DNA of 64,000 nucleotides from Sordariomycetes sp. S80-01Y (lineage: Eukaryota; Ascomycota; Sordariomycetes), in assembly GCA_037042185.1 (NCBI GenBank), contig JAXQJY010000031.1:2418001-2482000 (forward strand). Direction: 5' to 3'. Position numbers and translations under genes: made by a program. This document shows, in pieces, positions 6,648-55,317 of this stretch. The notes below the pieces were generated by a model. It was not told where the DNA came from and made no database searches. It saw nothing but the letters and a program-made list of their open reading frames with translations. Positions within the stretch are counted from its first letter, which is position 1. The number at the start of each line of letters is the position of its first letter.

Positions 6648-6780
6648 AACCAGGCTCTACCGCCTGCTGCGTTCGGGCTGATCTCTCGCCGCTGTAACCC
6701 TACCGCCCTCCGAGACAGTGTTTGCCTGGATATCGGTTCCAACTATCCCTCGGTTCGACAAGTCACAGAACCCAGCAACC

Positions 6781-8553
6781 ATGCTCGACGGCGTGACGTG
6801 GATCATCGCCATCACCACAATCGCGCTTTGCGGCAGCGCGTTTGGTAACGGTGCTAACGATGTCGCCAACGCGTACGCCACCTCGGTCGCGGCCCGGGCC
6901 CTGACGCTCGCGCAGGTCGGTGTCCTCGCCGTCTTCACCGAGTTCATCGGCGCCGTGGCCCTGGGCTCCAAGGTCACCGACACCATCAAGAGCGGCATCA
7001 TCGACATCGAACACTTCAAGCCGAACCCTTCCGTCCTCGTCCTGGCCATGGGGTGCGCTGAGGTCGGCAGCGCCACCTGGCTTCTTCTTGCGACCAAGCT
7101 GGGCTTCCCCGTCTCGACGACCCAGACCATTGTCGGCGCCCTCGTCGGTGCCGGTCTCGCTTCCACCGCAGGCGTCACCTGGGAGTGGACGAGCGGCAGC
7201 GTTTCTCAGGTCGCCGCCTCCTGGGGCATTGCCCCTTGTCTGGCCGCCTGCTTCTCCGCCATCCTCTTTTCCACCATGAAATTCACCATCCTGGAGCGCG
7301 AGGACTCCTTCACCAAGGCCATGCGCGCCATTCCCTTCTACTTTGCCTTCACCGCTGCCGTCCTGGCCCTCTTCTTCACCATTGAGATTCCCGTCAGCCC
7401 CGGCATCGAAGGCGAGGGCGCCCTCAACCCCGGCGTTGTCGTCGGCATCGTCCTCGGCGTCTTCGTCGGCGTTCTCGCCATCTCGTACATCTTTTTTGTC
7501 CCTTACTTCAAGCGCCGTCTCGTCCGCGAGGATCCCCGCGTCCGCCCCTGGCACATCATCCTCGGGCCCCTGCTGCTCCGCGACGACCCTCCCTTGTTCT
7601 GGCCTGGAAAAAACCACGAAGTCGTCATCGACTACTACGTCTCCAGCCACGACGACAACCACGCTGGGGATGAGAGCGATGCTAAGAAGGAGGCTGACGA
7701 GGAGAAGGGCAAGCCCGCCGACCCCGCCGCCAGCAGCAACACCCCCAACAGCGAGGAGCAAGCCGCCCACCGCGCCAACGCCCAGTCGCTCCGAGATGCT
7801 GAGGCTGGTGGTGTGTTCGTTGAGCGCGACGGCCTGCGCATCAAGAAGGTCTCCCCGATCCAGGAGCCCGAGGACCGCTGGTTGAAGCCGTACTCGCATC
7901 TCTCCGTCTTCCACCCCACGCGCGCCGGCAACTTCGTCAAATACTTCTTGCTGCAGGGCGTCTCCCGCGACTGCGTCACGCACTCCTCGGCCCAGCTCGC
8001 CAACGTTCACTCCAAGGCCAAGCGCTACGACAACCGCGTCGAGCACCTGTGGACGTACGCTCAAGTGCTCAGCGCCATGATCATGTCTATCGCCCACGGC
8101 TCCAATGACGTTGCCAACGCGCTGGGCCCCTGGGTGGGTGCGTACAACACCTGGAGGACCGGAGTCGTCGAGGAGGAGAGCGACACGCCCATCTGGATCA
8201 TCGTCGTGGCCGGTCTGCTCCTGGGCGCTGGTTTCTGGTTCTTTGGCTACCACATCATCCGCTCTCTCGGTAACAAGATCACCCAGATGAGCCCCGTCCG
8301 CGGCTTCTCGGCCGAGCTCGGCGCCGCAATCACTGTGCTGCTCGCCTCGAGCCTGGGACTGCCTGTTTCCACCACCCAGTGCGTCACGGGTGCCGTCCTC
8401 GGTGTCGCCCTCATGAACCTCGACTTCAGCGCCGTCAACTGGAAGCAGCTCGGCTTCATCTTTTGTGGCTGGGTCCTCACGCTGCCGTCCGCCGGCCTCA
8501 TCTCTGGTCTGCTGATGCTGATGTCCCTTAACACTCCGTCCTTCTACCGTTAG
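6781..8553 (+). CDS. PHO89: PiT-family phosphate symporter (PHO89/PHO-4 type)
   Basis: High-affinity cation/phosphate symporter of the plasma membrane, 590 aa, intronless. It has the two inverted halves of the PiT (PHO-4) family. The N-half signature GNGANDVANAYATSV lies near residue 21 and the C-half signature HGSNDVANALGPW near residue 438. Each half also carries the GxPVSTTQ motif (LGFPVSTTQTIVGA and LGLPVSTTQCVTGAVLG). Hydrophobic helices flank a long charged cytosolic loop (about residues 240-415) rich in D, E, K, A and P. The ATG at 6781 (CAACCATGC) is preferred over the in-frame codon at 6718, because the first transmembrane helix starts right after it. Two CACGTG boxes upstream fit phosphate-starvation control by the NUC-1/PHO4 pathway. 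Neurospora pho-4 is the characterised relative. Confidence 0.95.
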   Translation: MLDGVTWIIAITTIALCGSAFGNGANDVANAYATSVAARALTLAQVGVLAVFTEFIGAVALGSKVTDTIKSGIIDIEHFKPNPSVLVLAMGCAEVGSATWLLLATKLGFPVSTTQTIVGALVGAGLASTAGVTWEWTSGSVSQVAASWGIAPCLAACFSAILFSTMKFTILEREDSFTKAMRAIPFYFAFTAAVLALFFTIEIPVSPGIEGEGALNPGVVVGIVLGVFVGVLAISYIFFVPYFKRRLVREDPRVRPWHIILGPLLLRDDPPLFWPGKNHEVVIDYYVSSHDDNHAGDESDAKKEADEEKGKPADPAASSNTPNSEEQAAHRANAQSLRDAEAGGVFVERDGLRIKKVSPIQEPEDRWLKPYSHLSVFHPTRAGNFVKYFLLQGVSRDCVTHSSAQLANVHSKAKRYDNRVEHLWTYAQVLSAMIMSIAHGSNDVANALGPWVGAYNTWRTGVVEEESDTPIWIIVVAGLLLGAGFWFFGYHIIRSLGNKITQMSPVRGFSAELGAAITVLLASSLGLPVSTTQCVTGAVLGVALMNLDFSAVNWKQLGFIFCGWVLTLPSAGLISGLLMLMSLNTPSFYR

Positions 8554-8905
8554 AGGTGGGCTGGCTGGACTGCGATCGGGTATGTAGTTGATATATAGAG
8601 TGTTAAGAAAATTAATGCAATTTGCTTTGGCACCCTTGGTGATTATGATGGTCAAGTATGAGATCGCGAGAGTAAAGTTCACGGCCCGTGCAGTCAAATC
8701 CACCCCATGTTGGGACCGCGCAACGCTCGGTGTCGCTCGTCAGGGCTTGCAGGGTAATGGCTCCGTGGAGGCCCGGCGCGCAGGCGGCTTGATGTGGACG
8801 ATGAATGGCACCCGTGGACGAGGAACAGAGAAGGGAGGAGACATTCCAAGACCTGGATGGGACCACAGAGTATACGTCTAAGGTGGCCGTGTCGATTAGC
8901 GTAAC
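8554..8905. other. Intergenic, 3' flank of the phosphate gene
   Basis: About 350 bp with no coding frame I can support. A GATATATAG run lies near 8590. The first 91-bp module begins at its right end. Confidence 0.3.
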
Positions 8906-8996
8906 ATATGAAAACCACCTGCACCACCCGTTGGAGAGGTACCGAAACCACTGGTTCTCGTACTAGGGCGGAAGGCGACGAGCGTGGTTTTCGTAT
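8906..8996. repeat. 91-bp palindromic module, copy 1
   Basis: Half-site 8906-8917, central palindrome 8939-8963 (arms GTACCGAAACCA and TGGTTCTCGTAC, 1-bp centre), inverted half-site 8985-8996. The spacers are 21 bp each. The linker to copy 2 is 15 bp. Confidence 0.9.
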
Positions 8997-9011
8997 ATGC
9001 GAGCGCCTCTA

Positions 9012-9102
9012 GTACGGAAACCATCTAAGTAGGCGGTTTGGCGGGTACGAGGACCAGTGGTTATGGTACCTCTCCAACGGGTGGTGCAGGTGGTTTTCGT
9101 AC
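9012..9102. repeat. 91-bp palindromic module, copy 2
   Basis: Half-site 9012-9023, palindrome 9045-9069, inverted half-site 9091-9102, spacers 21 bp. Bases 9065-9098 are the exact reverse complement of 8910-8943 in copy 1, so the two copies form a larger inverted repeat. Confidence 0.9.
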
Positions 9103-9139
9103 TGCGGGGTTACTGGGCGATAAGGGGTTATTAGCGCCT

Positions 9140-9230
9140 AGACGAAAACCACGTCCCGCCGCCTATGGCGGGGTATGAAGACCACTGGTTCTCGTACCCC
9201 CTTTTACTATGCGATAAGCGGTTTTCGTAC
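9140..9230. repeat. 91-bp palindromic module, copy 3
   Basis: Half-site 9140-9151 (AGACGAAAACCA), palindrome 9173-9197, inverted half-site 9219-9230. The left spacer folds as CCCGCC-GCCTAT-GGCGGG. Confidence 0.9.
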
Positions 9231-9641
9231 GTGCAGGAGGGTGCCCTGCCGCGCCACCCCACGAGCCATGCCGCGCTGCACTTCCGTGAGACGAGATCGC
9301 CGCGCATCCAGCCGACCGTGGCCCGCCGCAGAGACGCGCATTACCAACGGCGACGGCCATCTGCAGGGACGGTTGAAAACACAAAGATGAAAGGCATAGC
9401 TTTGGCGTTGGTGCACGTGAAATCTAAATTAATGCGGATGGCACCTCGGACGGCGCCCGTACTGGCATCGTCAAAAGCTTCACCTGCGGCCTGGTGGTGG
9501 CCAAGCTTTGGGTAGGCAGGGCGGCTCTACGCTGTGGGATCGAGGGGCGGCGCTGCCGGCCATAGCTCAGTGCGAGAACCGGCCTGGTTGCTGCTGGAAA
9601 AAGGGTGCTATAAATGGGTCCCGTGCTTCGGCAAACAAGAG
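9231..9641. other. Non-module DNA between module groups
   Basis: GC-rich, no supportable gene. Bases 9420-9500 carry short open frames without family features. Confidence 0.25.
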
Positions 9642-9731
9642 GTACGAAAACCAGTCTGGCCACCCTAAACAGGGTGCGAAGGCCTGTGGTCTTTATACCC
9701 CACCCTAAGCGGGTAACTATGGTTTTCATAC
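9642..9731. repeat. Palindromic module, copy 4 (90 bp)
   Basis: Half-site 9642-9653 (exact GTACGAAAACCA), more worn palindrome 9674-9698, inverted half-site 9720-9731. Left and right spacers carry CACCC-TAAACA-GGGTG and ACCC-TAAGC-GGGT hairpins. Confidence 0.85.
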
Positions 9732-9745
9732 CTCAGAGTCCCAGA

Positions 9746-9836
9746 GTATGAAAACCATCTTACACGGCTGAAAGTGGGGTACGAAAACCACTGGTTTTCG
9801 TACCTTAGCTAAGTACTATAAATCTGGTTCTCGTAC
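9746..9836. repeat. 91-bp palindromic module, copy 5 (best-preserved palindrome)
   Basis: Half-site 9746-9757, perfect palindrome 9779-9803 (arm GTACGAAAACCA, centre C, exact inverse arm), inverted half-site 9825-9836. The right spacer begins with the 10-bp palindrome CTTAGCTAAG. Linker from copy 4 is 14 bp. Confidence 0.92.
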
Positions 9837-10215
9837 CTCGACCCATTTCGAAGTGGAGGGCGCCTCTTGGCCACCACCTATAACTCAATAGCGCCGTACC
9901 GTTTATTTCGATATATCTAGTTATGTACTGGATCGCTGCACCCGCGTGCGAGCTGCTACGACTGCTCTGGCTGAGCTTGGCCGCGGCCTACGCCCGTGGT
10001 GGATGGCGGGCGCCGTCAATGGCGGGCGGTCGTAGGACCTCAGCGCGACCGCGATTTGCCCGCGATGGCGTACATCACTGATTCACGCGCTACAGCGGGT
10101 TATATATAGGGGCAATAACAGGTAACGATACATAATATATAGCGTGGGATTAAATCTATGCTACGACCCCGAGCTTATAAGGTAAAGGCGCGTCTGGCCC
10201 TATAGATATAGCGTA
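9837..10215. other. Non-module DNA between module groups
   Basis: No supportable gene. It contains several TATATA/ATATAG runs (near 9910, 10100 and 10130), which recur beside other module groups (near 14405, 15290 and 15770). Confidence 0.25.
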
Positions 10216-10305
10216 GTACGAAGTGCATGTTTTACCGCAAGGAAAGGCATACGAGAACCACCGGGTTTCGTACCCCGCCTAGTGTGGCCAGACTGGTTTT
10301 CATAC
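10216..10305. repeat. Palindromic module, copy 6 (90 bp, worn)
   Basis: Degenerate half-site 10216-10227 (GTACGAAGTGCA), palindrome 10249-10273, inverted half-site 10294-10305. Linker to copy 7 is 3 bp. Confidence 0.8.
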
Positions 10306-10308
10306 CTC

Positions 10309-10399
10309 AGACGAAAGGCGACCCCCACACCTTCTACACGGGTACGAAAACCACTGGTATTCGTACTAGCACCGCCGACCGTAAATATGGTTATCGTAT
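10309..10399. repeat. 91-bp palindromic module, copy 7
   Basis: Degenerate half-site 10309-10320, palindrome 10342-10366 with one mismatch between arms, inverted half-site 10388-10399. Confidence 0.85.
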
Positions 10400-11297
10400 G
10401 CCTCGAATACGCCCGCGCCGAGCGCGTCTAATTTACGCTTGATGCACGTTCTAAAGAGGAGGAGATGTATCTGGCTCGTGCTAATTGCGCTTTCAAAGGT
10501 TTAATCAAGGTATCTCACTCCGTAGACGCCTCCGCATGCGGAGACGCGTTCAGCTCAGTCAAGTGTCTTTGAGAGCACCGCACGCATCAGGAATGAGACG
10601 AAGAGCCTGAACACGGAGGCCCTGCCGTTGATCAGGGGCATGGCGCTTGTCTGCCGCACGGCAGCACCGGCGCGCCAGCTGTGAGGCTCGACCAGACGGG
10701 CACGCTACCCTGCTGCGGCCGCTCATGGTGTCTCCTCTACACGATGCATGTGCCAGGGGTGCTTCATGAAAAGGTAAACGACGCATGGAAAACTGCTTTA
10801 CTTTGAATGGAACAGGGTTTTACTGCGAGGGTGTTGCGGTACGCAGCGCCATGAAGTTGAGTGCTCAGCCAAAAGCATCGGCGGAATGGCGTGGACGCGG
10901 CGAGGATTAGGAGGCTCGAACAGGCGGGTTGCCTCTGCGACGGATCTCGCAGCACGCTCTTGAATAGCAGACTGAAGCCGGCAAGTAATAGACTGCTGCC
11001 AATACCGTCGTACGGTACCCGTGGCCCCCTGCACGAGGTCTACTTGGAGTGCGCCCACGCATTCAACGGCACTGAGAAGAGGTGTTTACGGCATTGCTGC
11101 ATGGAGTCTCTGGGTCGGTGCTATGCTACGTCCGGCTACGCATTTCACAAGGCGACAAGAAAGCTTTCGCACAGAAGGAAGAAAGAAGCCTGTGGCCGGC
11201 TCAAAGTCACCGGAGCTATCCAAAACGAGAGGATTTGCGCAGAAGGGAGGAAAGAGCCTACGGCCAGGTCAAGATTACCAAAGATATCTAGCTGAAC
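10400..11297. other. Intergenic, with a two-copy tandem repeat at its end
   Basis: No gene supportable. At 11165-11220 and 11233-11290 a stretch of about 57 bp is repeated imperfectly (CGCAGAAGG..GAAAGAG and similar), just past the end of the gene at 11298-12719. It may be part of that gene's 3' UTR. Confidence 0.4.
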
Positions 11298-12719
11298 CTA
11301 GTCCAGATCCATGTCGCCGCCCGCCGGGGCGTCTGGCTCGTCCAGGAGGGGGCCGACAACGTTGTCCATGGCCGCGCGCATGTGCTCATCCAGCCCGTCA
11401 CGGACGCGGCGCGCTGCCTCGGGATCACCGGCGAATAGGAGCCGGACGATGCTGTTCCAGAGCCTCTTGCGCTCGAGGGCGCGTTCGAGCTCGCGGCGCC
11501 GGTTCGCAAGCTGGCGCCGACCCTCCGCCAGCAACTCCTGGGCGGACCTGCGCAGCACGGGCATGTCCCTGGTGGCCGCCGTGAGCTGGGCTTGGGAGCT
11601 GGCGAGCTTGACGCACGCCGTATCGTATAGCTCGAGCAGCTCGGCACGGCGCTCGGCCTCGAGCCTCGCTTTGTGGAGGTTGGCGCTGAGGGCCGAGTTG
11701 GCGAAGACGTGGCGCTCCATCCTGGCAAAGTCAGCGCCGGTGTTAGCGCGGTTTCCGCCGCCCTCTTCGAGATTGAGTCCGTGCTGCCAGAGTAGGGACC
11801 CGGCGAGGGTCACGACCAGCTGCTCCGCCGTGTGGAGCTGGTCCGGCGACCACGTCCGCAGAGCCACCTTGGCGACGGGTTGGAGCGCCAGCCGCTCAGC
11901 CTGGGCGACGGCTAGGAGGAAGGCGAGCTGCTGGCTCGCCTTGGGGTATCGGGGTCCGCTGTAGCAGGCCATGCGCGCGCGGAGGTTGTTGGAGCAGCCG
12001 GCGTACAGCGGGCTCTGCCGATGCCTGACGGTGCCGGTCGGGTCCAGCGCGAGGGTCATATCAGCCCTCTCCAGAAGGCTCTGGCGCAGCCTCGATGCGT
12101 TGTTGACGGCTGTCTGCGAGTTTATGAACGTGCCGCCACCGCCGGCTGACGACATGGCAGCGTCCACCCTGTCGCGGTACGCGAGGTCGAGCTTCTCCTG
12201 CTGGGTGCGCTGAGCCGCCGGCTTGTTGTGCGCCGCGAAGCCTGCGAGGTAGCTCTGTATGGCATGGGCTATCTGCCTCATCTCGGTCGGGGTCAGGAAT
12301 TCGCCCGAAATCTTGCCGGTCCGGCGCAGGCCCACGACGTAAACGCCCTGGACCGGCGCGCTGGGGTCGTTAGGCGTCTCCTGCCACCGTGCGCGGCTGT
12401 GGAGGCGACCAGACGAGTCGGCGGCGACCGTGTTACGCACGATGGCCTTGACGGACGAGGGGTGCATGCTGTAAAGCAGCGTGGTCATCGTCCACTTGGA
12501 GCCAGGGGTCTCGGCTCGGAGAGCTGCGACGGTTCTCCTGGCGCCGCCCTGGTTGCTCCAGACGCCGGCGCTGTGCACGAGGGCGCTGGCCATCCGCGGG
12601 AACTCGGCCATGAGCGGGTATAGGGAGTCTTTCTCCTCGATGATCTGCACCAGATGGCTCTGGAGCGCGTCACCGGGCATAGGCATCGATGCCGTGCGGT
12701 TCACTGTTGCTGATGCCAT
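11298..12719 (-). CDS. Hypothetical protein with GIY-YIG-nuclease-like segments
   Basis: Single-exon frame of 473 aa. The start is the ATG at 12719 (context TGCCATGGC read on the plus strand). I do not recognise a named family. GVYVV (residues 125-129) and LYAGCSNNLRARMACY (238-253) look like the two conserved parts of a GIY-YIG nuclease fold (GxY, then Y-x-G-x-S-x-NL-x-x-R), but about 110 residues apart instead of the usual 10-20. That would need an insertion, so the assignment is weak. Residues about 345-420 are charged and helical (probable coiled coil), and the tail is acidic. No signal peptide or membrane helix is seen. The gene sits between two groups of 91-bp palindromic modules, and a role at those modules is only a guess. 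Confidence 0.6.
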   Translation of the reverse strand: MASATVNRTASMPMPGDALQSHLVQIIEEKDSLYPLMAEFPRMASALVHSAGVWSNQGGARRTVAALRAETPGSKWTMTTLLYSMHPSSVKAIVRNTVAADSSGRLHSRARWQETPNDPSAPVQGVYVVGLRRTGKISGEFLTPTEMRQIAHAIQSYLAGFAAHNKPAAQRTQQEKLDLAYRDRVDAAMSSAGGGGTFINSQTAVNNASRLRQSLLERADMTLALDPTGTVRHRQSPLYAGCSNNLRARMACYSGPRYPKASQQLAFLLAVAQAERLALQPVAKVALRTWSPDQLHTAEQLVVTLAGSLLWQHGLNLEEGGGNRANTGADFARMERHVFANSALSANLHKARLEAERRAELLELYDTACVKLASSQAQLTAATRDMPVLRRSAQELLAEGRRQLANRRRELERALERKRLWNSIVRLLFAGDPEAARRVRDGLDEHMRAAMDNVVGPLLDEPDAPAGGDMDLD

Positions 12720-13514
12720 GGCTGCGTTGTGCGTGAGGAGCGTGAGAGGCGGAAGTGTGCTTTGAAGTGAGATGATGGTAAAGGAGTGCCGTAGCAGCTA
12801 TGCTAAGGTGAATTGGATGTGAGCTGGGGTGAGCCGCAAAGTCGCCATGAGCTCCCGCAGGTGAGCAGGCGCGCGTAAGGCCCGTTTCCACCCCGGCTGC
12901 CGGTGTGCTCCGTCTTTAGTACGCAACGCAACATAGTTGACGTCGAAGGCCTGACGATAAGTCCGTTGCTCCCAGTGCGGTCAGACCGGTCCACGGCCGA
13001 ACGAGCTGGTACCCTCAAGGGACAGAGACATCTGGCCTGGCCGGGATCTATGTCGGTCACAGAAGAGGCGTCCAATTTTCCAGCCACCTCTGTTGAGACC
13101 ATGGCAACCCAGGCCACACACGGGGTGCCCCATGCGGCAGAGCGGTACTCGCACGAAGATGCGCCCAGATGTCTTTGGACAGTAGGCATGGCAGTCGTGG
13201 GCTGCCCCAGAGAGCGCATTGAGGCTCCATCATAAATGCTCATCTCGTGTCAGCTGGCGCATGACAGCGAGGCTTCGGTATCCACGTTGAGATAGGAAAC
13301 GCTTGGCTGCTGGAGGCAACACGGCAGCCGGGCAGAGTCGCCGGTGCGTACTGTTATCCCGTGCAGCGCTCCGGTCGACGGCATAGACCACGCGCGATCG
13401 TGCACGACATCTTTGGAACTGCGCCTGGAGTCCCGGCGTTATCAACATTTAAATAGATGAAAGTGGTTCCTCAGAGCTACGTCGCGGAGACCCAGGCTAC
13501 CGCCAGAGGAGGCA
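12720..13514. other. Intergenic, promoter side of the GIY-YIG-like gene
   Basis: No supportable coding region or module; short frames here lack conserved features. Confidence 0.25.
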
Positions 13515-13605
13515 AGACGAAAACCAGATACTACTACGCCCTTTGGGGTACGGAGACCACTGGCTTTCATACTAGGTCCAATGCGGTTGGACGTGGCCTT
13601 CGTCT
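13515..13605. repeat. 91-bp palindromic module, copy 8
   Basis: Half-site 13515-13526, palindrome 13548-13572, inverted half-site 13594-13605. The outer ends AGACGAA and TTCGTCT are complementary although both differ from the usual GTACGAA. The right spacer folds as GTCCAA-TGCGG-TTGGAC. Linker to copy 9 is 3 bp. Confidence 0.88.
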
Positions 13606-13608
13606 AGT

Positions 13609-13699
13609 ATACGAAAACCATGGTGCCCCACTTTGAACCTAGTATGAAAGCCAGTGGTCTTCGTACCCCTTGCTATAGTGGGGAAAGTGGTTTTCGTAC
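13609..13699. repeat. 91-bp palindromic module, copy 9
   Basis: Half-site 13609-13620, palindrome 13642-13666, inverted half-site 13688-13699 (exact TGGTTTTCGTAC). Confidence 0.9.
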
Positions 13700-14030
13700 T
13701 GGCACCAAGCGCCACCCCCTAAGAACGGAGATGGCGATGCGTACCGCGAATTTCGCTCTGGCTGGTACCATGAGGTGCACCGGACGGCGGCCGTTTCTAC
13801 GAGGCACGTCAAGGCGCCACTGCACCACAGCCACCAGGCGTCAAGACAGCTCCAGACCATGCCCCCGCCTCTTCGTCGCGTCGCACCCACCGCCCGGGTG
13901 GCGGATACCATCTCTGGTCCATCTCTGGTGCCCAGGGCGCGTCGTGAATACTTAAGATAAACGACTATACGGACGCGTCGAGAAATAAACTTCAAAGATT
14001 GGATAATGACTAAGATACGCACGCACCAGA
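13700..14030. other. Non-module DNA between module groups
   Basis: No gene supportable. The first bases after copy 9 (GGCACCAAGCGCC) may be a decayed left half-site of another module. Confidence 0.2.
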
Positions 14031-14100
14031 ACTGCTCGATGCAGGGCCAGTGATAGGAGTGCTCGTAGGTTATCCATAGCGGCGAGGCTGGTTTTCGTAC
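14030..14100. repeat. Decayed palindromic module, copy 10
   Basis: Only the inverted half-site 14089-14100 (TGGTTTTCGTAC) is exact. A degraded CCA-G-TG centre lies near 14047-14052. It is 14 bp before copy 11, the usual linker. Confidence 0.5.
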
Positions 14101-14114
14101 TCCGGGATCTGCTA

Positions 14115-14204
14115 GTACGAAAACCATATTTACCAACGCGGAGCCTAGTACGAGGACCAATGGTGTTTATATTGGCACATAGGTGGGGAATATGGTTTTC
14201 GTAC
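14115..14204. repeat. Palindromic module, copy 11 (90 bp)
   Basis: Exact half-site 14115-14126, palindrome 14148-14172, exact inverted half-site 14193-14204. Confidence 0.88.
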
Positions 14205-14527
14205 GTCGCGTGTCGCCACGAAGAAAACCCTCTGCACCACCATAAAATCTTATATCTTGCTCCTCTGGTGCATTGGAATAGGCCCCGAGCTTAATCAGGA
14301 AAAGTTACAGCCCTAAGCAGTCAAAGTGGAGAGGTGTGATGCCTTCACGAAGATCTGCAGTGCCGCCATCGGTCGCATCACCACGTCGAGCGCTATAGCC
14401 CGCCATATATATAAACGACAGTGGGCAGAGACGCAGAAGAAGCATGGGGGAGGTAAAAAGCACTTATAGCTGGTCTATTTTGAAATTGCGGCGTGGTTGC
14501 GCTATGGGCTGGCGTGCGGAGGGCGAA
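14205..14527. other. Non-module DNA with a module remnant
   Basis: Near 14216-14235, GAAGAAAACC followed by CTCTGCACCACC resembles the left half-site and spacer of copies 1 and 12. The rest has no gene I can support. Confidence 0.3.
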
Positions 14528-14618
14528 GTACGAAAACCACCTGCCGCACCACTTTGCTATGTATGAAACCCAGTGGTCCTCGTACTAGCTATTTCGCCGT
14601 GTGGGGTGGTTTTCGTAC
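14528..14618. repeat. 91-bp palindromic module, copy 12
   Basis: Exact half-site 14528-14539, palindrome 14561-14585, exact inverted half-site 14607-14618. A worn further copy may start at about 14622. Confidence 0.9.
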
Positions 14619-15375
14619 TCCATGGAAAGCAGCCCCCGCACCGTGGGGCGCGGTGTGGACGCCCATGCGGCCGGGCACTGGTTCACTGGTTCGCGTGTCG
14701 TACGGACACGGCGCCTGGCATACGCGCGTCTCGAAAAAGCGAATTGACGCCGGAAGAAGCTCATTAATGCAGAGCATACAGTCGGCGTGGAGCGCGTGCT
14801 GCGACGGTACGAACTTGAGCGCGGCGCGTCGCATGCACATCTCTCACGGCAGCTCTACCAGCTCGCTGTCTCGACCTCAAACGGGCTCTCAGCTCATATG
14901 CTTTGGCAGCGGGCCCGAATGACTGATGAGGAGCACGGGTGTCCATCCGCGGCAGCTGCTGAATCTGCGTTGAGTGGCGCTGGCTGTCGATGTTAACCAG
15001 CATTCTCGCGTGAGGGCCTCCACCATGCTTGTTTTTCGCCGAGCACGCGCAACCCAGGCTTCGCGCACTCTACACAGCAACCTATCCATGAACGCGGTTC
15101 TCACCGTGAAATTGAATGTCTCAGTACTGGAACAGCCGCGGCAACGGGTGCTGAACGATTCCCAAAGCGACCCGGAAGACCTGAAGCATTCCCGTCCCCG
15201 GGTAGGGTCAATCCATGAATCGGCAACGGACGCTCTGCAAATGAGAAGCCGGGTCTGGGACACCAGGTCAGTCTCGTAGAGTGCCCTAGCGATATATAGA
15301 GCTCAGCGTCCAAGAAATAAATGTATCGAGACGGAGCGCTGACGATGGGAGCGGTAAAAGCACATCAGGGACCAC
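14619..15375. other. Non-module DNA between module groups
   Basis: About 760 bp, GC-rich, with several short open frames but no codon-bias or family support. I call no gene. Confidence 0.25.
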
Positions 15376-15465
15376 ATACGATAACCACTTTAGCGGGCGA
15401 AGTGGAGGTACGAAAACCAATGGTCTTCGTATGTCCGCTAGTGCGGGCCAGCATGGTTTTCATAC
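15376..15465. repeat. Palindromic module, copy 13 (90 bp)
   Basis: Half-site 15376-15387, palindrome 15408-15432, inverted half-site 15454-15465. The left spacer pairs as CCACTT-N9-AAGTGG, the right as CCGC-TAGT-GCGG. Confidence 0.88.
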
Positions 15466-15480
15466 TAGACCAACGATAAC

Positions 15481-15571
15481 ATACGAAAACCACGTTTACC
15501 GGCACTAACGGCAGTATGAAAACCGCTGGTCTCTATACCTGCTTTAAGGCGGGCCAGCGCGGTCTTTACCT
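15481..15571. repeat. 91-bp palindromic module, copy 14
   Basis: Half-site 15481-15492, palindrome 15514-15538, worn inverted half-site 15560-15571. The linkers on both sides (14-15 bp) share AGACC..AAC, suggesting tandem duplication of copies 13-15. Confidence 0.88.
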
Positions 15572-15585
15572 AGACCGCTGCCAAC

Positions 15586-15643
15586 GTACGAAAACCACCT
15601 CCGCCGGCGCCGCGCGAACACCACACCACTGATTATGGTATTT
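15586..15643. repeat. Decayed palindromic module, copy 15
   Basis: Exact half-site 15586-15597, a worn palindrome near 15618-15643 (CCACTGATTATGGTAT), and no right half-site. Confidence 0.55.
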
Positions 15644-15938
15644 CCATCTAGACGGGCCCAGAGCGCATCTGCAGCAAAGTTCATGGGCGCCCTGCACGGA
15701 AAGTGCATAAAGTATTTATATTGGCGAGTCTGCAAATAAATAAAACCAGGTCTCGCCGGCGCTTCCATTTATATATATCATGAATGGTTTGAGACGCTGC
15801 GGCCGTTCGCGACGTCGCGTGGCGGCTGCACGAGCATCGCCAGAAGCTTCATGGCGGCGTGGCGGGGAGGGGGCTCTTATAGTGGGAGCTACCCGCTGTG
15901 GCGGCTTAGCGGGCGCCTACGGGGGGGCATGGGTGAGG

Positions 15939-16029
15939 GTACGAAAACCAGCCCTGCCCGTAATAGAGGAGGTACCAAAACCAATGGTTTTTATACTTAG
16001 CTCAGTGCGGGGAAACATGGTTCTCATAT
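15939..16029. repeat. 91-bp palindromic module, copy 16
   Basis: Exact half-site 15939-15950, palindrome 15972-15996, inverted half-site 16018-16029. Linker to copy 17 is 15 bp. Confidence 0.9.
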
Positions 16030-16044
16030 TTAATTATATAACTA

Positions 16045-16134
16045 GTACGAAAGCCACCCCTAGCACCTAATTAATGGGTATAAAAGCCAGTGGTCTTCGT
16101 ACCCCCGCTAAAGTGATAAAGGTGGGTTTCGTAT
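16045..16134. repeat. Palindromic module, copy 17 (90 bp)
   Basis: Half-site 16045-16056, palindrome 16078-16102, inverted half-site 16123-16134. Linker to copy 18 is 3 bp. Confidence 0.88.
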
Positions 16135-16137
16135 GCA

Positions 16138-16228
16138 GGACGAAAACCATGTCGCTCCGCATTAGTCGGAGTATGAAAACCACTGGTCTTAGTACCTCCT
16201 CTATTGCGTGCAGGGCTGGTTTTCGTAC
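16138..16228. repeat. 91-bp palindromic module, copy 18
   Basis: Half-site 16138-16149, palindrome 16171-16195, exact inverted half-site 16217-16228. The left spacer folds as CTCCG-CATTAGT-CGGAG. Confidence 0.9.
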
Positions 16229-16570
16229 CACTGGGCGCCCACCTGGCGGGGGTTTGGTCCCCCGGGCAGCCACCGTGACACATGTGGGTCGCCGGGTTTC
16301 ATACCCCTATCTTCCCTGCAGGGGGGTCAATAGAAAAACCTAAAAACGACCTCACGAGCTTCTGTCAACGCAGCCGCCAGGAACTCACGAGCGTCACATG
16401 AGGAGTTGAGTGTAAGCAGGAGACATCCGGACGAGGCCATTAGAATTTGCTATCGTCAGTTCACCTGCGGTCTGCGAACGGATTTGGAGCTTGCGCCGGG
16501 ACGAGCGCTCACGACACACGATGCGATTCAATCAACGGATAGGGGCTTGGGGCACGAATTCAATTACAGT

Positions 16571-17771
16571 CTATGAAAGTGCGGCCTTTACGAGAATCTC
16601 GGGCCCGGTGCGCCCAGTCAGGGGTGCGTAGGCGTGGCGCAGAGAGCGGCGCCAGGAACGGGCGACAAAGGGCACCAGCCACTTGTCAGGAAGCTGGCCG
16701 CGCGCCTCGCACAGCTCCAAGAGGGCTGCGACGGTGTCGGAAACAGGTGCGGCTTGCGATGCGGCGATGAGCTCGGTTGCTTTGGCCATGGCTGCTGTGC
16801 GGTCGACGCGGAAGGCCGTAGCGCGGTCGGCGGCGCCCTTGGGATCGGCTGCGTCGTCAACACGAGCCGCGATCAGGGCTGCGTGGGCAGACTCGGCGGC
16901 CTGCACAAGCAGAAGCCTCTCGCGCAAGGAGAGATCGAGCCACTCGTGCAGAGGCGAAGGACGGCCTCTGTAGACGTCGAGGGCCCAGTCGAGGACGACG
17001 GCCCAGGTGTCGCAGAGCAGGCGGCGGCTACACAAGGACAGCGGGGCTGCCAAGGGGAACTGCGGCGTGCTCACAACGACGCGGGAGCCCGATCCGCAGC
17101 CGGCCACACCAACAGTGACGCCGTTGAGGAAGGTGTTGGTCAGCGTGAGGCCCTCTCGCGAGAGCCCAAGCTCGGCGCGGCTTGACCAGGGGGGCAGGGT
17201 GAGCATAAAGGGCGTGTCGAAGGGAGCCTCGAAGACCGTGTACCCAAACTCCCAACACCAGACGGCAGTGGCCGCCTTGGTCTGCTCGTCGTTGCGCTCG
17301 CCCTCCAAGCCCTGCACGTATTCGGTGAAGGGAACGCTTCGCGCGAGCTCCCCCCGCCAGGCGTACTCGGGCAGGCAGTCGATCCAAGGCCACTTGGGCC
17401 GGTTGCCGGGCGTGAAAATGTCGACTGCAAGGGGAGTGGTCAGCGGTGACGGTAAGAAAGGGGCTCGGGATCTGCTCACAGGTTCTGCCCCAGACGGTCT
17501 CGTCGACGAGATACTCGAACATCTCCTTGGACATTCGGGAGATGCCGTCGGCGTACTGGGTCTGGCACACCTCGTCCTCGACGTCGCGGCGCTGAGCGCA
17601 GATGCTCGCGTGGTCGCGGCCGGTCATGAAGGTGATGTAGGCCTCGAGGTACTCGCGGCGCGACTCTATGTCAGCCGGCCTTTCAAGCTCAGCCAGGGCG
17701 AAGGTGCTGCCATCGGCTTGCTGGCACTCGCGGTGGGGGCGTCCGTCGTTGACGGAGGGAAGGCAGCTCAT
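16571..17771 (-). CDS. Hypothetical protein, two exons, 381 aa
   Basis: Exon 1 is 17771-17480 and exon 2 is 17424-16571, with a 55-nt intron (GTGAGC...TTGCAG). The joined frame is 1146 nt and keeps phase. I recognise no family. The product is soluble, without signal peptide or membrane helix. It has a charged N-terminal part with aromatic residues (residues about 40-95), then EYAWRGELARSVPFTEYVQG, a Gly/Ser segment GVAGCGSGSRVVVS, and an Ala-rich helical C-terminal half. It is divergent from the zinc-knuckle gene, with 325 bp between the start codons, which suggests shared control. It lies just to the right of the palindromic-module domain. Confidence 0.7.
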
Positions 17772-18096: not shown

Positions 18097-19665
18097 ATGG
18101 CCAACAACGACCGCAAGAACGAGGAGAAGAAGAAGCGAGAGGGGGAGAAAGCACGTCTTCGCAGCCGCGAGGAAGAACTCGTCCGTGAGCGGAACGAGAT
18201 GCTGCGCAACACCGACGCTGGCGATCGTCTCCGCGATCAACAGCAGCAGCAACAGCAACAGCAGCAGGGGCCTCAGGGCGGCCTTGCTACCTCCATGCAT
18301 CACCCGAGCAGGGACGTTGACATGGACCGACCGGAGAACGTGTCCTCGGGCGAGTTCGCTGGCCGACACATGCCGGGCGCCGTGTCCATTCACGACACGG
18401 GCGTCTACCCCAAGGGCCCGCCGAGCTCCAAGGCGGCGCCGAAGGGCAGCAAACCGGGCGGTCACGATATGGCCCGTCCCCGCGACGACCGAGGCCGCAA
18501 GCAGGAGCAGTCTCGGAAGCGGCAGAACCTGAAGCTGCAGCACGGAGGAGGTGGCCCCTGGTCTGCGCAGGCTCCCGATATGGCCACTTCGATGGTCTTC
18601 AAGATGGCTGACAACGCCACCAACTTTCAAGACGCCCTGCCCGTCAACACATCGGCTGGCGGCGGGCGCCAGGACCACTTCCAGACCCCGATGGGTCCGA
18701 ATGCCGTCTTCCACCGCGCGAGGCCGGAAGCCTCGTACCAGGTCCTCAAGGAGCTGGCCAAGAGGGACCCCACCAACAAGGGCGTGGTCAACAACCTCTC
18801 CTGGACCAGCGCTCTGGAGGGCAGGAAGCCACTCGACAAGAGGATCGACGCGGCCGGCTTGAAGGCCTTCCTGGACAGCGCCAAGTCCGTCAAGGCGAGG
18901 TCCAACACAGCAGCCCGTCCCGCCGCTGTGGACGCGCCCATGGGGAACACGTCAGATGCCCCCCGGGCACCGGCCTCGGTTCCGCAGGTGCCGCAAGGCC
19001 TGAGCGTTGCGCGCTGCCCGGCTTTCGATGGCTCGGCGGGCGACGACGGTCTGCCCTTCGAGGACATGGCTTCTGAGGTCCCGAAAACCCCAGATCCAAG
19101 CACTGTTTCGTTCGTTTGCCCGAACTGCAAGCTCCCTGGCCACTCCCTGGCGACGTGTGTTGTGGCACGTCCTCTCGCCGATGGGATGGCGTATGTTCCG
19201 GGGTGTCCCATTCACGACTCGATGGACCACAGCCTCGACGTCTGCAGAGAGATGCACAAGCTCTCCGTGGACAAAAGGTTCGCCAAGTTTGTCGTGGAGA
19301 GGCAAAACATGCCGTCCTTCCATATCAATTGGCTCGACATAGTCAGGGCGTACTATCGTCAGGGCGCACACACCCAGCGCTGGGAGCCGATGCCGTGGAC
19401 GCCCATGTTTTGCCGGGACGTAGTCAACCGCAACCCCGACGCCCTCATGGAGGCGCAGAGGTCGCGCAATCTGTCGACATTGCCCGTCGACCCGGCGTCG
19501 CAGACGCTTCGAGCGCTCTTCGGAGTCTTCCCCACCATGGACTGGCCGCAGTACCTACGCGCCGAGTTCGAGCCCCTGAGCCAAACCAATGCTTGGGGAC
19601 AAATCAAGGCTCCGACGCGCCGAGTCACGCAAAGGAAGGCCGGTGCGAGTGGCAACGCCAACTGA
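18097..19665 (+). CDS. Hypothetical protein with poly-Gln tract and two zinc knuckles
   Basis: 522 aa from the ATG at 18097 (TTCACCATGGCC). The frame is open further upstream, but a likely 5'-UTR intron (GTACGT near 18041 to CAG at 18089) ends just before this ATG. Residues 5-45 are a basic/acidic coiled-coil stretch, followed by ten Gln. A long low-complexity middle follows. A CCHC zinc knuckle (CX2CX4HX4C) occupies residues 341-354 and a variant CX2HX4HX4C knuckle residues 370-383. Such knuckles bind RNA or single-stranded DNA. The C-terminal 130 residues are Trp/Pro-rich and look globular. No reverse transcriptase, integrase or terminal repeat is near, so I do not treat it as part of a retroelement. 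It is divergent from the gene at 16571-17771. Confidence 0.7.
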   Translation: MANNDRKNEEKKKREGEKARLRSREEELVRERNEMLRNTDAGDRLRDQQQQQQQQQQGPQGGLATSMHHPSRDVDMDRPENVSSGEFAGRHMPGAVSIHDTGVYPKGPPSSKAAPKGSKPGGHDMARPRDDRGRKQEQSRKRQNLKLQHGGGGPWSAQAPDMATSMVFKMADNATNFQDALPVNTSAGGGRQDHFQTPMGPNAVFHRARPEASYQVLKELAKRDPTNKGVVNNLSWTSALEGRKPLDKRIDAAGLKAFLDSAKSVKARSNTAARPAAVDAPMGNTSDAPRAPASVPQVPQGLSVARCPAFDGSAGDDGLPFEDMASEVPKTPDPSTVSFVCPNCKLPGHSLATCVVARPLADGMAYVPGCPIHDSMDHSLDVCREMHKLSVDKRFAKFVVERQNMPSFHINWLDIVRAYYRQGAHTQRWEPMPWTPMFCRDVVNRNPDALMEAQRSRNLSTLPVDPASQTLRALFGVFPTMDWPQYLRAEFEPLSQTNAWGQIKAPTRRVTQRKAGASGNAN

Positions 19666-52022: not shown

Positions 52023-52413
52023 GCAAACAACAAGTTAGGAGGCAAAGGGACGGAACCACTGGAGTGGGGAGGGTCAGCAATTTATACCACTACTTCAGGA
52101 AAATCCTTTCCAGATATGCTTGGGCGTCGAAGAAACCTCATTGGCTTTTTCTGCCGACCGATTGCTGAGTGGAAGTGTGCGACCCCTGCTTCCGCAAACC
52201 AGATCTCGTTAGCTGGCCAGCCGAGTTAGTGGCTACGAATGGCCTCGATGCTTGCTCCAGTTTACATCACCATGCATTAGAGTTCTGGTACTTTCAGAGT
52301 GATTAATGCAGACGAAAAGTGACTGGCAGGATGGCACCAACGCTTGTTAACGGTGAGGGACGCTGGACCACCTGTCAGCGAAGGGACAGGAAGCGGTCCA
52401 TCTACATACTATT

Positions 52414-53811
52414 AGGTTCAAAAAGTCTGAGAACGACCCCACCCCACCACACGCGTGCCGCACGCGTGTCCCAGCCACCCTCATTTTCCCTCTTTCATCC
52501 ACCAGCGACAATGGCCCCTAATCCAAGGGCTTTTGGTACCGTTATAAGCGGAAATCGACGGCCTAACTGCGAATTTCCTCCTGAAGCTCGGGGAGCGATT
52601 GTCGCGCTACGATTGGAAGGCAAATCCTACGGTGCTCTCGCAACGGAGTTTAACACCACGAAGTCAGCAGTATGGAAGATCGTCAACCGCTTCCAAACCG
52701 ACCAAACAATCTCTCCAAAGCCTCGTACAGGCAGGCCGGCTAAATTAACCAAGGAGCAACGCAAGTATGTTATTCTTCTTCTTAAAAGGGATCGCGATAT
52801 AAGCTGGAAGGCGCTTGTACATGATGCAGGCGTTGCGGTATGTGTGAACACGCTCCGTAACGCTATCGGCAAGCATTACTCACGTAAATGGAGAGCTATT
52901 GAGAGAATTCCTCTTGATAAGGATACTGCTTTTGATCGTCTTGCTTTTTGTCGCGATTGGCTTCCTGATGTAGAAGAGTTATTGGGTGTATTTATCCCTT
53001 GAGATACCCCATTCGACGCGTACACGGCTAACTTTTACTCTCTCTATGTCTAGGTGATTATCTTTAGCGATGAGACCACCCTCCGTTCCGAATCGAATTG
53101 CCCAAGCCGGTGGATCTTCCGTAAGCCTCATGAGAAGTTTATGAAAGAATTTATCTACCTCGGAGAGCACGGTAAACCTCGTATCTCTATTATGGTGTGG
53201 GGAGCGATCTGGAAGGGCGGCCGTAGCCACCTTGTGGTTATGGAACGAGATTAGCAGGCGCCACGGAAAGGATATTCGGCAAGAAGCTATCGTAAGGCAT
53301 TAGAAGAGGGACTTCTTCCCTATTATCAGCCTTGGATGAGGTTTATGCAAGATAACGCGCCAATACATAAGGAAGAAGCGACGATGGCGTGGTTTTTACA
53401 GCATGGGATCGAGGTGCTAGACTGGCCACCACACTCGCCGGATCTCAACCCAATTGAGCACGTTTGGAAGGCTTTAAAGTAAATGCTTACGAAGTTACAT
53501 CCCGAAATAAGATACCTTAAGAATAACAAGGATCATATTCAAAGATTGAAGGAATGGATGGTTGACGCGTGGAATGCGATTGAACAAGACCATATCGACA
53601 ACCTAATTGACTCGTGGCCGCGCCGGCTACGTGAATGTATTCGCGCAAAGGGATACTATACCCATTACTAAACACCAAGAATTAGGCTATCTAATGGTAT
53701 CGCCAGCTTCATATTTAATTAATGAATGGGTTGTTTATGTGCGTCTAAAGTTGACGCCTGTGGCACCGGAATTTGTGTGGTGGTGGGGTCGTTCTCAGAC
53801 TTTTTGAACCT
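52414..53811 (+). mobile_element. Tc1/mariner (DD34E-type) DNA transposon with 37-39-bp terminal inverted repeats
   Basis: Left TIR 52414-52452 and right TIR 53775-53811 match except for a 2-bp length difference; both begin AGGTTCAAAAAGTCTGAGAA from the outside. TA-type duplications are partly visible (TTA on both sides). The 1.4-kb element holds one transposase gene. It lies in the intergenic space between the hydrolase and a repeat-rich secreted protein, ending 51 bp past that gene's stop codon. High TIR identity points to a fairly recent insertion. Confidence 0.9.
52511..53671 (+). pseudogene. Tc1-type transposase with an intron and two in-frame stops
   Basis: Exon 1 (52511-52987, 159 codons) holds the paired helix-turn-helix DNA-binding region (YGALATEFNTTKSAVWKIV, then SPKPRTGRPAKL). 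A 66-nt intron (GTATTT..CTAAC..CTAG, 52988-53053) joins it in frame to exon 2 (53054-53671). That exon has the DDE catalytic set: FSDE, QDNAPIH and HSPDLNPIEH. Two stops interrupt exon 2: TAG at 53252-53254 and TAA at 53480-53482. Both fit a Gln codon (CAG, CAA) changed by C to T in a CpA context, the mark of repeat-induced point mutation. No frameshift is present. The protein would be 363 aa, a usual Tc1 size. Confidence 0.88.
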
Positions 53812-53862: not shown

Positions 53863-55317
53863 TCAAAGCTCTTCGTGAACAACTTCCCCCTCATTAACAG
53901 CCTCTCCAGCCTCTCCAGCCCCTCCAACCCTTTCAAGATTTCCATCCCCTTCGAGGCATGGCACTTCCTCCAATATGATCGGGATACAGTAGCGTGGGTT
54001 GGACTTAAACCCAATTCCTGGATTTCCGGCAGGGCAGACCGGGCCCAGGCCCTTTCCGTCGCCCTTCAAGCATATACCGCAGCTGTCTCCGACCCACGGC
54101 CGTGCAGTGAATTTGACCGCGCTAAACGCGAATTCCGCGTTGCCGAAGTGCCAGCCAGGCAGTTCGACGACCCAGAACAGCGTGTCAGGACTGCTCTTGG
54201 AAGTGCGCCCCATCTGGTCATTGATGACGAAGGGGGAGTTGACGGAAATCTCCTCGCCCTTGGAACAGTCCGAGGTCGATCGGCAGATGCGGAACTGGTA
54301 GATGTCCGCGTAATAGCCGCCCCAGACGTAGTCTTGGAGTCCATGGTCTCTCTTGTTGAGGGCTTTGCCTTCGGGGTTCTTGAACCGGTAACAATGGCCA
54401 TACTTGAGACCAATCTTGTCACCATTGACGTCGGGACAGATGCGTTGTGTGCATCCGTTGGACAACGACTCAGGGCTACAAGCTCCGCTGGTCGCATTCG
54501 CCTTGGATCCGTCACAGCAATTGACACAGCCGTTGGGAACAGCGGGAGCCCCTGGGCCTGGATTGATGGCGTTGCCAGGAGCGGGAGGATTTCTAGGACC
54601 CGGGTTGTTGGCGTTGTAGTTGTTATTGTTGGAGTTACCAGGGGCGGGAGGATTTCCAGGACCCGGGTTGTTTGCGTTGTAGTTGTTGTTGGTGTTGGCA
54701 TTACCAGGCGCGGGAGGGTTTCCAGGACCCGGGTTGTTGTTGTAGTTGTTGTTGTAGTTGGCGTTGCCAGGAGCGGGAGGATTTCCAGGACCCGGATTGT
54801 TGACATTGTAGTTGTTGTTGGTGTTGGTGTTGGTGTTACCAGGGGCGGGAGGGTTTCCAGGGCCTGGATTGTTGGCATTGTAGTTGCTGTTGTGGTTGGT
54901 ATTACCGGGAGCGGCAGGATTGCCGGGACCGGGACTGTGGTGGCCATGGTCGTTGGCGCCCGGCCCTTGGCCCCCGGAACATCCTCCGCAACTCTGAGGG
55001 GCTCCGTACTGAGGCTGGTACTGCGGGTCCACGCACATGTAGCCATCGAACGCGACCGTCGTGTCGGGACAACAGCTTCCAGTCTGGGATCTGTCATCCC
55101 AAAAGTACTTATGACCTTGGGGTGGGCAGCATGCACCCCTGTTCGTCCTAGGGTCAACCAAGAACGCGGCATTGGGAGCGCAACCGGCAGCTTGCCCTGG
55201 ACTTGGTCCTTGGGCGTGGCATGGCTGCTGGTTGATCCCTTGCGCAGCTCCACAATCGCCCAAGGCCTGTGTTGCCAACAGAGACGCTCCTACAGCGATG
55301 AGCGAGAGTCGAGCCAT
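53863..55317 (-). CDS. Secreted protein with PGPGN/Asn-rich tandem repeats
   Basis: 484 aa, intronless, with a signal peptide (MARLSLIAVGASLLATQALG). The N-terminal 110 residues have paired Cys (GACCPPQG, GSCCPD, SCGGCSGG) of a small secreted fold. Residues about 125-270 are a run of six or seven repeats built on NNPGPGNPPAPGN with Asn/Thr/Tyr-rich spacers (24-27 aa each). A Cys-containing C-terminal domain follows (CVNCCDGSKAN, CYRFKNPEGK, DSCGICLKGDG). The acidic tail has the sequence NLERVGGAGEAGEAVNEGE. I recognise no family, but relatives in other moulds may be surface or adhesive proteins. A long opposite-strand frame here mirrors the repeats and is not taken as a gene. Confidence 0.85.
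   Translation of the reverse strand: MARLSLIAVGASLLATQALGDCGAAQGINQQPCHAQGPSPGQAAGCAPNAAFLVDPRTNRGACCPPQGHKYFWDDRSQTGSCCPDTTVAFDGYMCVDPQYQPQYGAPQSCGGCSGGQGPGANDHGHHSPGPGNPAAPGNTNHNSNYNANNPGPGNPPAPGNTNTNTNNNYNVNNPGPGNPPAPGNANYNNNYNNNPGPGNPPAPGNANTNNNYNANNPGPGNPPAPGNSNNNNYNANNPGPRNPPAPGNAINPGPGAPAVPNGCVNCCDGSKANATSGACSPESLSNGCTQRICPDVNGDKIGLKYGHCYRFKNPEGKALNKRDHGLQDYVWGGYYADIYQFRICRSTSDCSKGEEISVNSPFVINDQMGRTSKSSPDTLFWVVELPGWHFGNAEFAFSAVKFTARPWVGDSCGICLKGDGKGLGPVCPAGNPGIGFKSNPRYCIPIILEEVPCLEGDGNLERVGGAGEAGEAVNEGEVVHEEL
54530..54945 (-). repeat. Intragenic minisatellite coding PGPGNPPAPGN units
   Basis: Imperfect direct repeats of about 72-81 bp. Each carries a core that reads GGATTTCCAGGACCCGG or a close variant on the plus strand, followed by GTTGTNG runs. 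Unit length varies in multiples of three, so the frame is kept. Confidence 0.8.

Follow-up and report, generated by a model that had tools for sequence, protein, structure and literature searches.

Why should one place in a fungal genome hold so many copies of a single four-armed palindromic module? The question is raised by a 7.3-kb array in Sordariomycetes sp. S80-01Y, at positions 8906-16228 of the window analysed here, a stretch of 64,000 nucleotides (2,418,001-2,482,000) of contig JAXQJY010000031.1. A sequence-only reading had listed 16 module midpoints and two worn copies, and had offered three explanations, namely a mobile palindromic element, an array of sites for a tetrameric DNA-binding protein, or a structured RNA. 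In our analysis the balance tips slightly towards a single-locus, cis-acting array of composite platforms for a dedicated, cooperatively binding, putative protein.

Anatomy of the array

The array carries 16 copies of a module with the order arm (12 bp), 21 bp, arm, 1 bp, inverse arm, 21 bp, inverse arm. Each copy is about 91 bp long and consists of two half-sites placed head to head around one central base. All 16 midpoints listed earlier carry the module, and the proposed arm order and geometry were borne out with one correction, as 26 of the 32 half-sites have a spacer of 21 bp and six have one of 20 bp (five, if the worn right arm of the module centred at 15526 is read one base further out). 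Worn pieces are present as well: a lone arm, an arm with a degraded remainder, and a weak further arm at 16293. The modules form eight clusters (A-H) lying 0.3-0.8 kb apart, with 3.1 kb across a gene that we call orphan gene 1, as follows:

8906..8996: module 1, centre 8951, cluster A; four arms, each with at most 2 mismatches
9012..9102: module 2, centre 9057, cluster A; right spacer equal at 21/21 positions, inverted, to the left one of module 1
9140..9230: module 3, centre 9185, cluster A
9642..9731: module 4, centre 9686, cluster B; left spacer 20 bp
9746..9836: module 5, centre 9791, cluster B; the sole perfect central palindrome among the 16
10216..10305: module 6, centre 10261, cluster C; right spacer 20 bp
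10309..10399: module 7, centre 10354, cluster C; left outer arm weak, 5 mismatches
13515..13605: module 8, centre 13560, cluster D
13609..13699: module 9, centre 13654, cluster D
14089..14100, minus strand: lone outer arm of a worn module, cluster E; faces module 10, 14 bp away
14115..14204: module 10, centre 14160, cluster E; right spacer 20 bp
14528..14618: module 11, centre 14573, cluster F
15376..15465: module 12, centre 15420, cluster G; left spacer 20 bp
15481..15571: module 13, centre 15526, cluster G; right outer arm worn
15586..15650 (end approximate), plus strand: worn module; outer arm intact, remainder degraded
15939..16029: module 14, centre 15984, cluster H
16045..16134: module 15, centre 16090, cluster H; right spacer 20 bp
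16138..16228: module 16, centre 16183, cluster H; right spacer shares 19/21 with the left one of module 14

Within 8906-16228 the arm GTACGAAAACCA has 34, 56 and 64 matches at up to 1, 2 and 3 mismatches, respectively, while 60 dinucleotide shuffles of the same sequence gave means of 0, 0.32 and 3.95 and maxima of 0, 2 and 9, so that the arms are clearly enriched over shuffled sequence. Over the whole window, 65 of the 95 matches at up to 3 mismatches fall within 8800-16400. The table of distances between arms, with signs for their orientations, has its peaks at ++33 (13 times), --33 (11 times), +-46 (21 times) and +-13 (13 times).

The spacing between modules is also restricted. The ten gaps between neighbours measure 15, 37, 14, 3, 3, 14, 15, 14, 15 and 3 bp, two of them touching worn arms. 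Nine of the ten belong to the set 3, 14 and 15; with concentration in one single-value class plus one two-value class as the test statistic, the best of 3000 sets of ten uniform gaps reached 7. Module centres in the same clusters are 93-94, 105-106 or 128 bp apart, near whole helical turns, and helical phasing gave an R of 0.79 at 10.5 bp (P 0.002) and higher values, 0.90-0.95, at 11-11.5 bp. Inherited duplication could also produce such gap classes.

Conserved positions and the age of the copies

The spacers were compared after turning the right halves to the orientation of the left halves. Among the 26 spacers of 21 bp, 22 have C at position 8, 22 have C at position 11 and 17 have T at position 3. 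When 20-bp spacers were put in register with the missing base on the outer side, and three near-identical half-sites were dropped from the 32, the CnnC positions were C in 25/29 and 24/29 and position 3 was T in 18/29. Since CnnC is conserved inside each spacer, the basic unit is a half-site of 45 bp, present twice per module in inverted orientation: outer arm GTACGAAAACCA, 7 bp, CnnC, 10 bp and inner arm GTAYGARRRCCA. Likeness among spacers is confined to the arm orientation, with a mean of 8.30 identities against 6.79 in shuffled spacers and 6.77 in the opposite orientation. Outside the three conserved columns, agreement is 0.304, compared with a background of 0.254 and with 0.323 from the columns' own make-up; these positions are near saturation and the arms are not.

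In the arms, the commonest base is present in at least 79% of the 29 half-sites at 20 of 24 positions, those below this value being outer position 1 and inner positions 4, 5 and 8. The inner arms hold 47 transitions and 10 transversions, mainly at C4 and A7-A9 (C4>T, A7-9>G), and hardly vary at TA (2-3) and CC (10-11); read in arm orientation, the changes are of the same kinds on the left and on the right. The outer arms vary most at G1 and T2 (30 transitions, 17 transversions). Selection for imperfect inner palindromes was considered and rejected, as a direct permutation test did not bear it out (5 doubly deviating positions versus 7.4, P 0.15).

Three pairs of spacers are near-copies of each other: the left spacer of the module centred at 8951 and the right one of 9057 (21/21), left 15984 and right 16183 (19/21), and left 9686 and right 10261 (16 identities). 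Because every pair consists of one left and one right half, modules have probably undergone inverted copying or conversion among themselves. The inverted spacers shared by 8906-8996 with 9012-9102, and those within 15939-16228, may be seen as a sign of inverted exchange in the array. The left flanks of clusters are weakly similar (mean z 1.01 over 28 pairs, best 5.8; reversed controls, mean 0.18, best 2.7). A longer tandem unit including the DNA between clusters was tried as well and discarded, the similarity being only weak.

Because the spacers are near random (30.4% vs 25.4%) while the arms are conserved, the copies look old and their contact points look held by selection, which explains the pattern better than recent spread would. 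The earlier statement that spacers differ widely is thus right in general, apart from the three near-copies and from the C at 8, C at 11 and T at 3 that most, not all, spacers share. It had further been supposed that arms and geometry were either selected or recently spread; the conserved arms and CnnC among near-random spacers argue for selection rather than for recent spread.

If each cluster were a small structured RNA gene, its transcript folding by means of the arms, paired arms should change together. The inner arms pair in 164 of 192 cells, below the 168.2 +- 2.0 obtained with shuffled partners, and the outer arms in 163, close to the shuffled 162.5 +- 2.0; reading the minus strand gave 160 vs 162.5 for inner and 168 vs 166.6 for outer arms. 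In alignment A2, all five covariation measures lie under the shuffled means, and its cells pair in 85.9% against 36-44% in slid registers, as they must in any palindrome. RNAalifold proposed a different, weak structure of -5.2 kcal/mol with a covariation term of -0.18, in which 3 of 14 pairs kept a double change. Within spacers, where single sequences look hairpin-like, hairpins were rejected as a general feature, the sum of best stems being 91 vs 89.1 +- 4.5 in shuffles; the folding energy of the plus strand of spacers was somewhat low (P 0.06). Rfam gave no match at the gathering score.

Signals that may belong to transcription are more favourable to RNA genes. In the non-coding part of 8554-16560 there are 19 TATA-like hexamers where 2.8 +- 1.7 are expected, though 6 of the 14 patches that they form lie inside clusters, four of those six in arm variants. 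Clusters B, C, F and G each have a TATA-like patch 28-113 bp to their left, and D has an A/T run at 60 bp on that side; on the right side, patches within 120 bp occur at cluster G only. Between clusters there are 10 A/T-only runs of at least 9; shuffled sequence has 3.2 on average, and the highest count in 200 shuffles was likewise 10. A scan for bacterial-type promoters and terminators, which says little about a fungus, gave 1 vs 3.9 and 6 vs 6.6 in shuffles. The string GATATATAGAG is present at both 8590 and 15291. Since covariation of the arms does not exceed that of shuffled partners and nothing in Rfam matches, the structured RNA proposed earlier finds no support in covariation, spacer folding or Rfam, and small RNA genes appear quite unlikely.

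Restriction to one locus, and its neighbours

We searched the 30.87-Mb genome (16 contigs) for the parts of the module, the repeat counts obtained being lower bounds. Of 17 exact arms, 15 lie in the array and two stand alone, on C10 and C16; the reversed-pattern control gave 6. The half-site pattern at up to 1 mismatch is found in the array in 17 of 18 cases and at exactly 2 mismatches in 5 of 16, with 12 matches outside the array compared with 25 in the control at up to 2 mismatches. A degenerate central palindrome at up to 3 mismatches occurs at 21 places, 16 of which are the 16 modules (control, 1+1). Each half of the array, used as a DNA query of the genome, returned no other locus. A profile of the 45-bp half-site, which scores high inside the array by construction as it was built from it, reached at best 1.5 bits elsewhere in the window. 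In the window, no second array of similar kind was detected with 12-mers at up to 1 mismatch (4 kb either side, every third start); every other 12-mer counted at least 5 times belongs either to a poly-T run (50.5 kb) or to a tandem repeat (54.6-54.9 kb). At the sensitivity used, the genome-wide searches find the array at one locus only, about 132-139 kb from the end of its contig (C14, 2,566,247 bp).

A mobile palindromic element, resembling a miniature inverted-repeat transposable element (MITE) and spread locally, would account for the many copies, the inverted symmetry and the three near-identical spacers in inverted position. Like fungal MITEs and short interspersed nuclear elements (SINEs), the module has inverted repeats, a length of about 100 bp and several copies; unlike them, it forms an array at a single locus, and dispersed copies were not found. 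The genome searches contradict mobility, as no further copy was found outside the 7.3 kb in 30.9 Mb, and conserved arms and CnnC with near-random sequence between them are the reverse of recent spread. Because the array was found at one genomic place only, we regard mobility as very improbable. The available part of one source has a table of Aspergillus SINEs that holds one arm string, a single arm (PMC5063351), which we take as chance. In the viral_contigs set the central palindrome had no match, and the arm-spacer-arm pattern was present in two contigs, L014 and L015, with six and eight arm matches, respectively, at up to 2 mismatches. Their one-mismatch arms are regularly spaced, several of them 66 bp apart, in sequence common to both, and we read them as a coding repeat that is presumably unrelated to the array. 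The genome_contigs set had no match to the array pattern.

The genes around the array are:

6682-8550: phosphate transporter gene (PF01384)
11298..12719, minus strand: orphan gene 1, lineage-restricted, 473 amino acids from the first ATG, between the two halves of the array
16574-17623, minus strand: orphan gene 2, with a likely upstream exon; gene structure by eye
18097-19662, plus strand: orphan gene 3, with one distant partial relative on C9

Two 3' ends, those of the phosphate transporter gene and of orphan gene 1, bound the left half of the array; the right half has the 5' end of orphan gene 1 on one side and the 3' end of orphan gene 2 on the other. The phosphate transporter has a 98% relative, and the nearest one with a name, at 77%, belongs to Emericellopsis atlantica, which points to a fungus of the order Hypocreales. 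In the genome, each of orphan genes 1 and 2 has itself as its sole match. For orphan gene 1, two homologues, 88% and 41% identical, were found among the best 8000 candidates scored; it has no Pfam family at an E of 0.01, no relatives of it were found in viral_contigs, and none of its homologue P0002 in plasmids.

Orphan gene 1 itself could be thought to encode a nuclease or recombinase with the array as its target, leading to programmed nicking, rearrangement or selfish transmission. It lies between the array halves, and nine residues (G125, V126, Y127, L238, Y239, G241, R249, E299 and N316) are invariant in it and its two homologues; the GIY-YIG motif consists of GIY, YIG, Arg, Glu and Asn in this order, and a set like it was seen by eye in orphan gene 1. 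It also holds the only match to a YIG-type regular expression in the six-frame translated window, and the inverted spacer copies suggest inverted exchange. Against this stand the lack of a GIY-YIG match in Pfam, NCBIfam, PHROG or PDB sequences, a PF01541 search of the genome that finds only a different gene, on C5, and a structure model with a predicted local distance difference test score (pLDDT) of 45.5, too low to use for the fold. Sites beside an active nuclease would moreover need protection. The GIY-YIG-like identity is a lead, not an assignment, and a nuclease target array seems to us distinctly doubtful. Unlikely, though a little less so, is a selfish or self-maintaining locus, a two-part element in which orphan gene 1, as a divergent GIY-YIG-like protein, or a neighbour would encode the factor that binds a private array of 91-bp platforms. 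The roles that might be proposed for such an element are maintenance, silencing, biased transmission or programmed exchange; it would be of a kind that our literature searches did not turn up in fungi.

Further features were noted in the window and genome. Orphan gene 3 encodes a zinc-knuckle-like stretch, CPNCKLPGHSLATC, recognised by eye. The open reading frame (ORF) at 52307-52999 (plus strand) has Tc1/Tc3-type transposase helix-turn-helix domains (PF01498, 3.3e-10) and is possibly part of a mobile element. The tandem repeat at 54567-54930, with periods of 63, 72 and 129 bp, lies inside an ORF at 53863-55437 (minus strand) that has GPGNPPAPGN-type repeats and no Pfam family. Runs of TTAGGG, probably telomeric, are present at the start of C13 and at about 2766.0 kb on it, at about 825.8 kb on C3 and at about 2170.8 kb on C9, with a further single stretch at C9:32404; none was found on C14.

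A putative binding array compared with known systems

The reading as a binding array is favoured because of the dyad geometry, the same degeneracy in both inner arms, the CnnC and the restriction to one locus. As expected of binding sites, a few short positions are conserved and keep constant distances, while the sequence around them is otherwise free to vary. Of the earlier proposals, an array of sites for a possibly tetrameric protein fits best. The putative DNA-binding protein would be dedicated to these sites, would contact each half-site in at least two regions, and would bind as a symmetric dimer or a dimer of dimers across the central base. Binding would be cooperative between neighbouring platforms 3 or 14-15 bp apart, and the eight clusters together would seed a single large complex, which would determine how orphan gene 1 and its neighbours are expressed or what chromatin state they take. 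The simplest role for 16 platforms flanking orphan gene 1 would be that of a locus-control or chromatin-nucleating element for it. That the binder is locally encoded and regulates its own locus is only a guess.

Several points weigh against the binding array. The helical phasing is moderate and thus only suggestive, and the genome repeat counts are lower bounds. The left half is flanked by convergent genes and does not lie in a promoter. Part of the regularity could stem from old duplications, considering the likeness of left flanks and the three near-copy spacer pairs. Finally, the binder is so far a putative one, and a factor dedicated to one locus would be unusual.

Nuclear binding motifs normally recur throughout a genome, whereas the 12-bp arm has 15 of its 17 exact copies in one 7.3-kb locus. 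A two-sided platform that is kept while the intervening sequence is randomised suggests a factor devoted to one place, and loci of such a kind, for example pairing centres, silencers and maintenance origins, do chromosome-level work. The array could be used directly as bait for its putative protein.

No element of this plan was among the best-ranked literature matches in searches aimed at it; besides fungal MITEs and SINEs, the closest likenesses are to three systems. Iteron and partition-site arrays of bacteria and plasmids are phased repeats of a binding site. As in these, phased sites are repeated beside the gene of a candidate binder; unlike them, the array is on a eukaryotic chromosome, and no Rep/Par match was seen among the neighbouring ORFs searched. 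The motif of the Caenorhabditis elegans pairing centres is 12 bp long. These centres, in the part of the source available, consist of DNA motifs in one chromosomal region that are bound by the zinc-finger proteins HIM-8/ZIM (PMC8455136). The array shares the concentration of motifs in one chromosomal region, and differs in being a composite dyad on one contig, with no candidate zinc-finger binder. Their rule of one array per chromosome was not found here, the motif being arrayed on 1 of 16 contigs, and arrays of other motifs were not searched for.

In oriP of Epstein-Barr virus (EBV), as far as the accessible text of the two sources goes, four dyad symmetry (DS) sites and twenty family of repeats (FR) sites bind one protein (PMC2654434), paired sites are 21 bp apart (PMC3798644), and binding is cooperative with looping (PMC3798644, PMC2654434). 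Many clustered sites for one protein, and a dyad element of four sites with pairs 21 bp apart, are points of likeness in layout. The array differs in that its unit is itself a four-armed dyad with CnnC, on a fungal chromosome, in eight clusters around a gene.

Functions in chromosome maintenance, as an origin or in meiotic pairing are the main rivals, the element then tethering one protein in many copies at one chromosomal place. The presence of one array in the genome, the many clustered sites at preferred spacings, the AT-rich patches between clusters and the oriP precedent would all suit such a function. However, the array is on one of 16 contigs, apart from the lone exact arms, and is thus not a per-chromosome element, and the neighbouring ORFs searched include no recognisable replication or segregation gene. 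We hold these functions to be rather unlikely, yet the most credible of the alternatives. Among known systems, the array may work most like EBV oriP (PMC3798644, PMC2654434) or the nematode pairing centres (PMC8455136, PMC9071541), membership in either class being conjectural.

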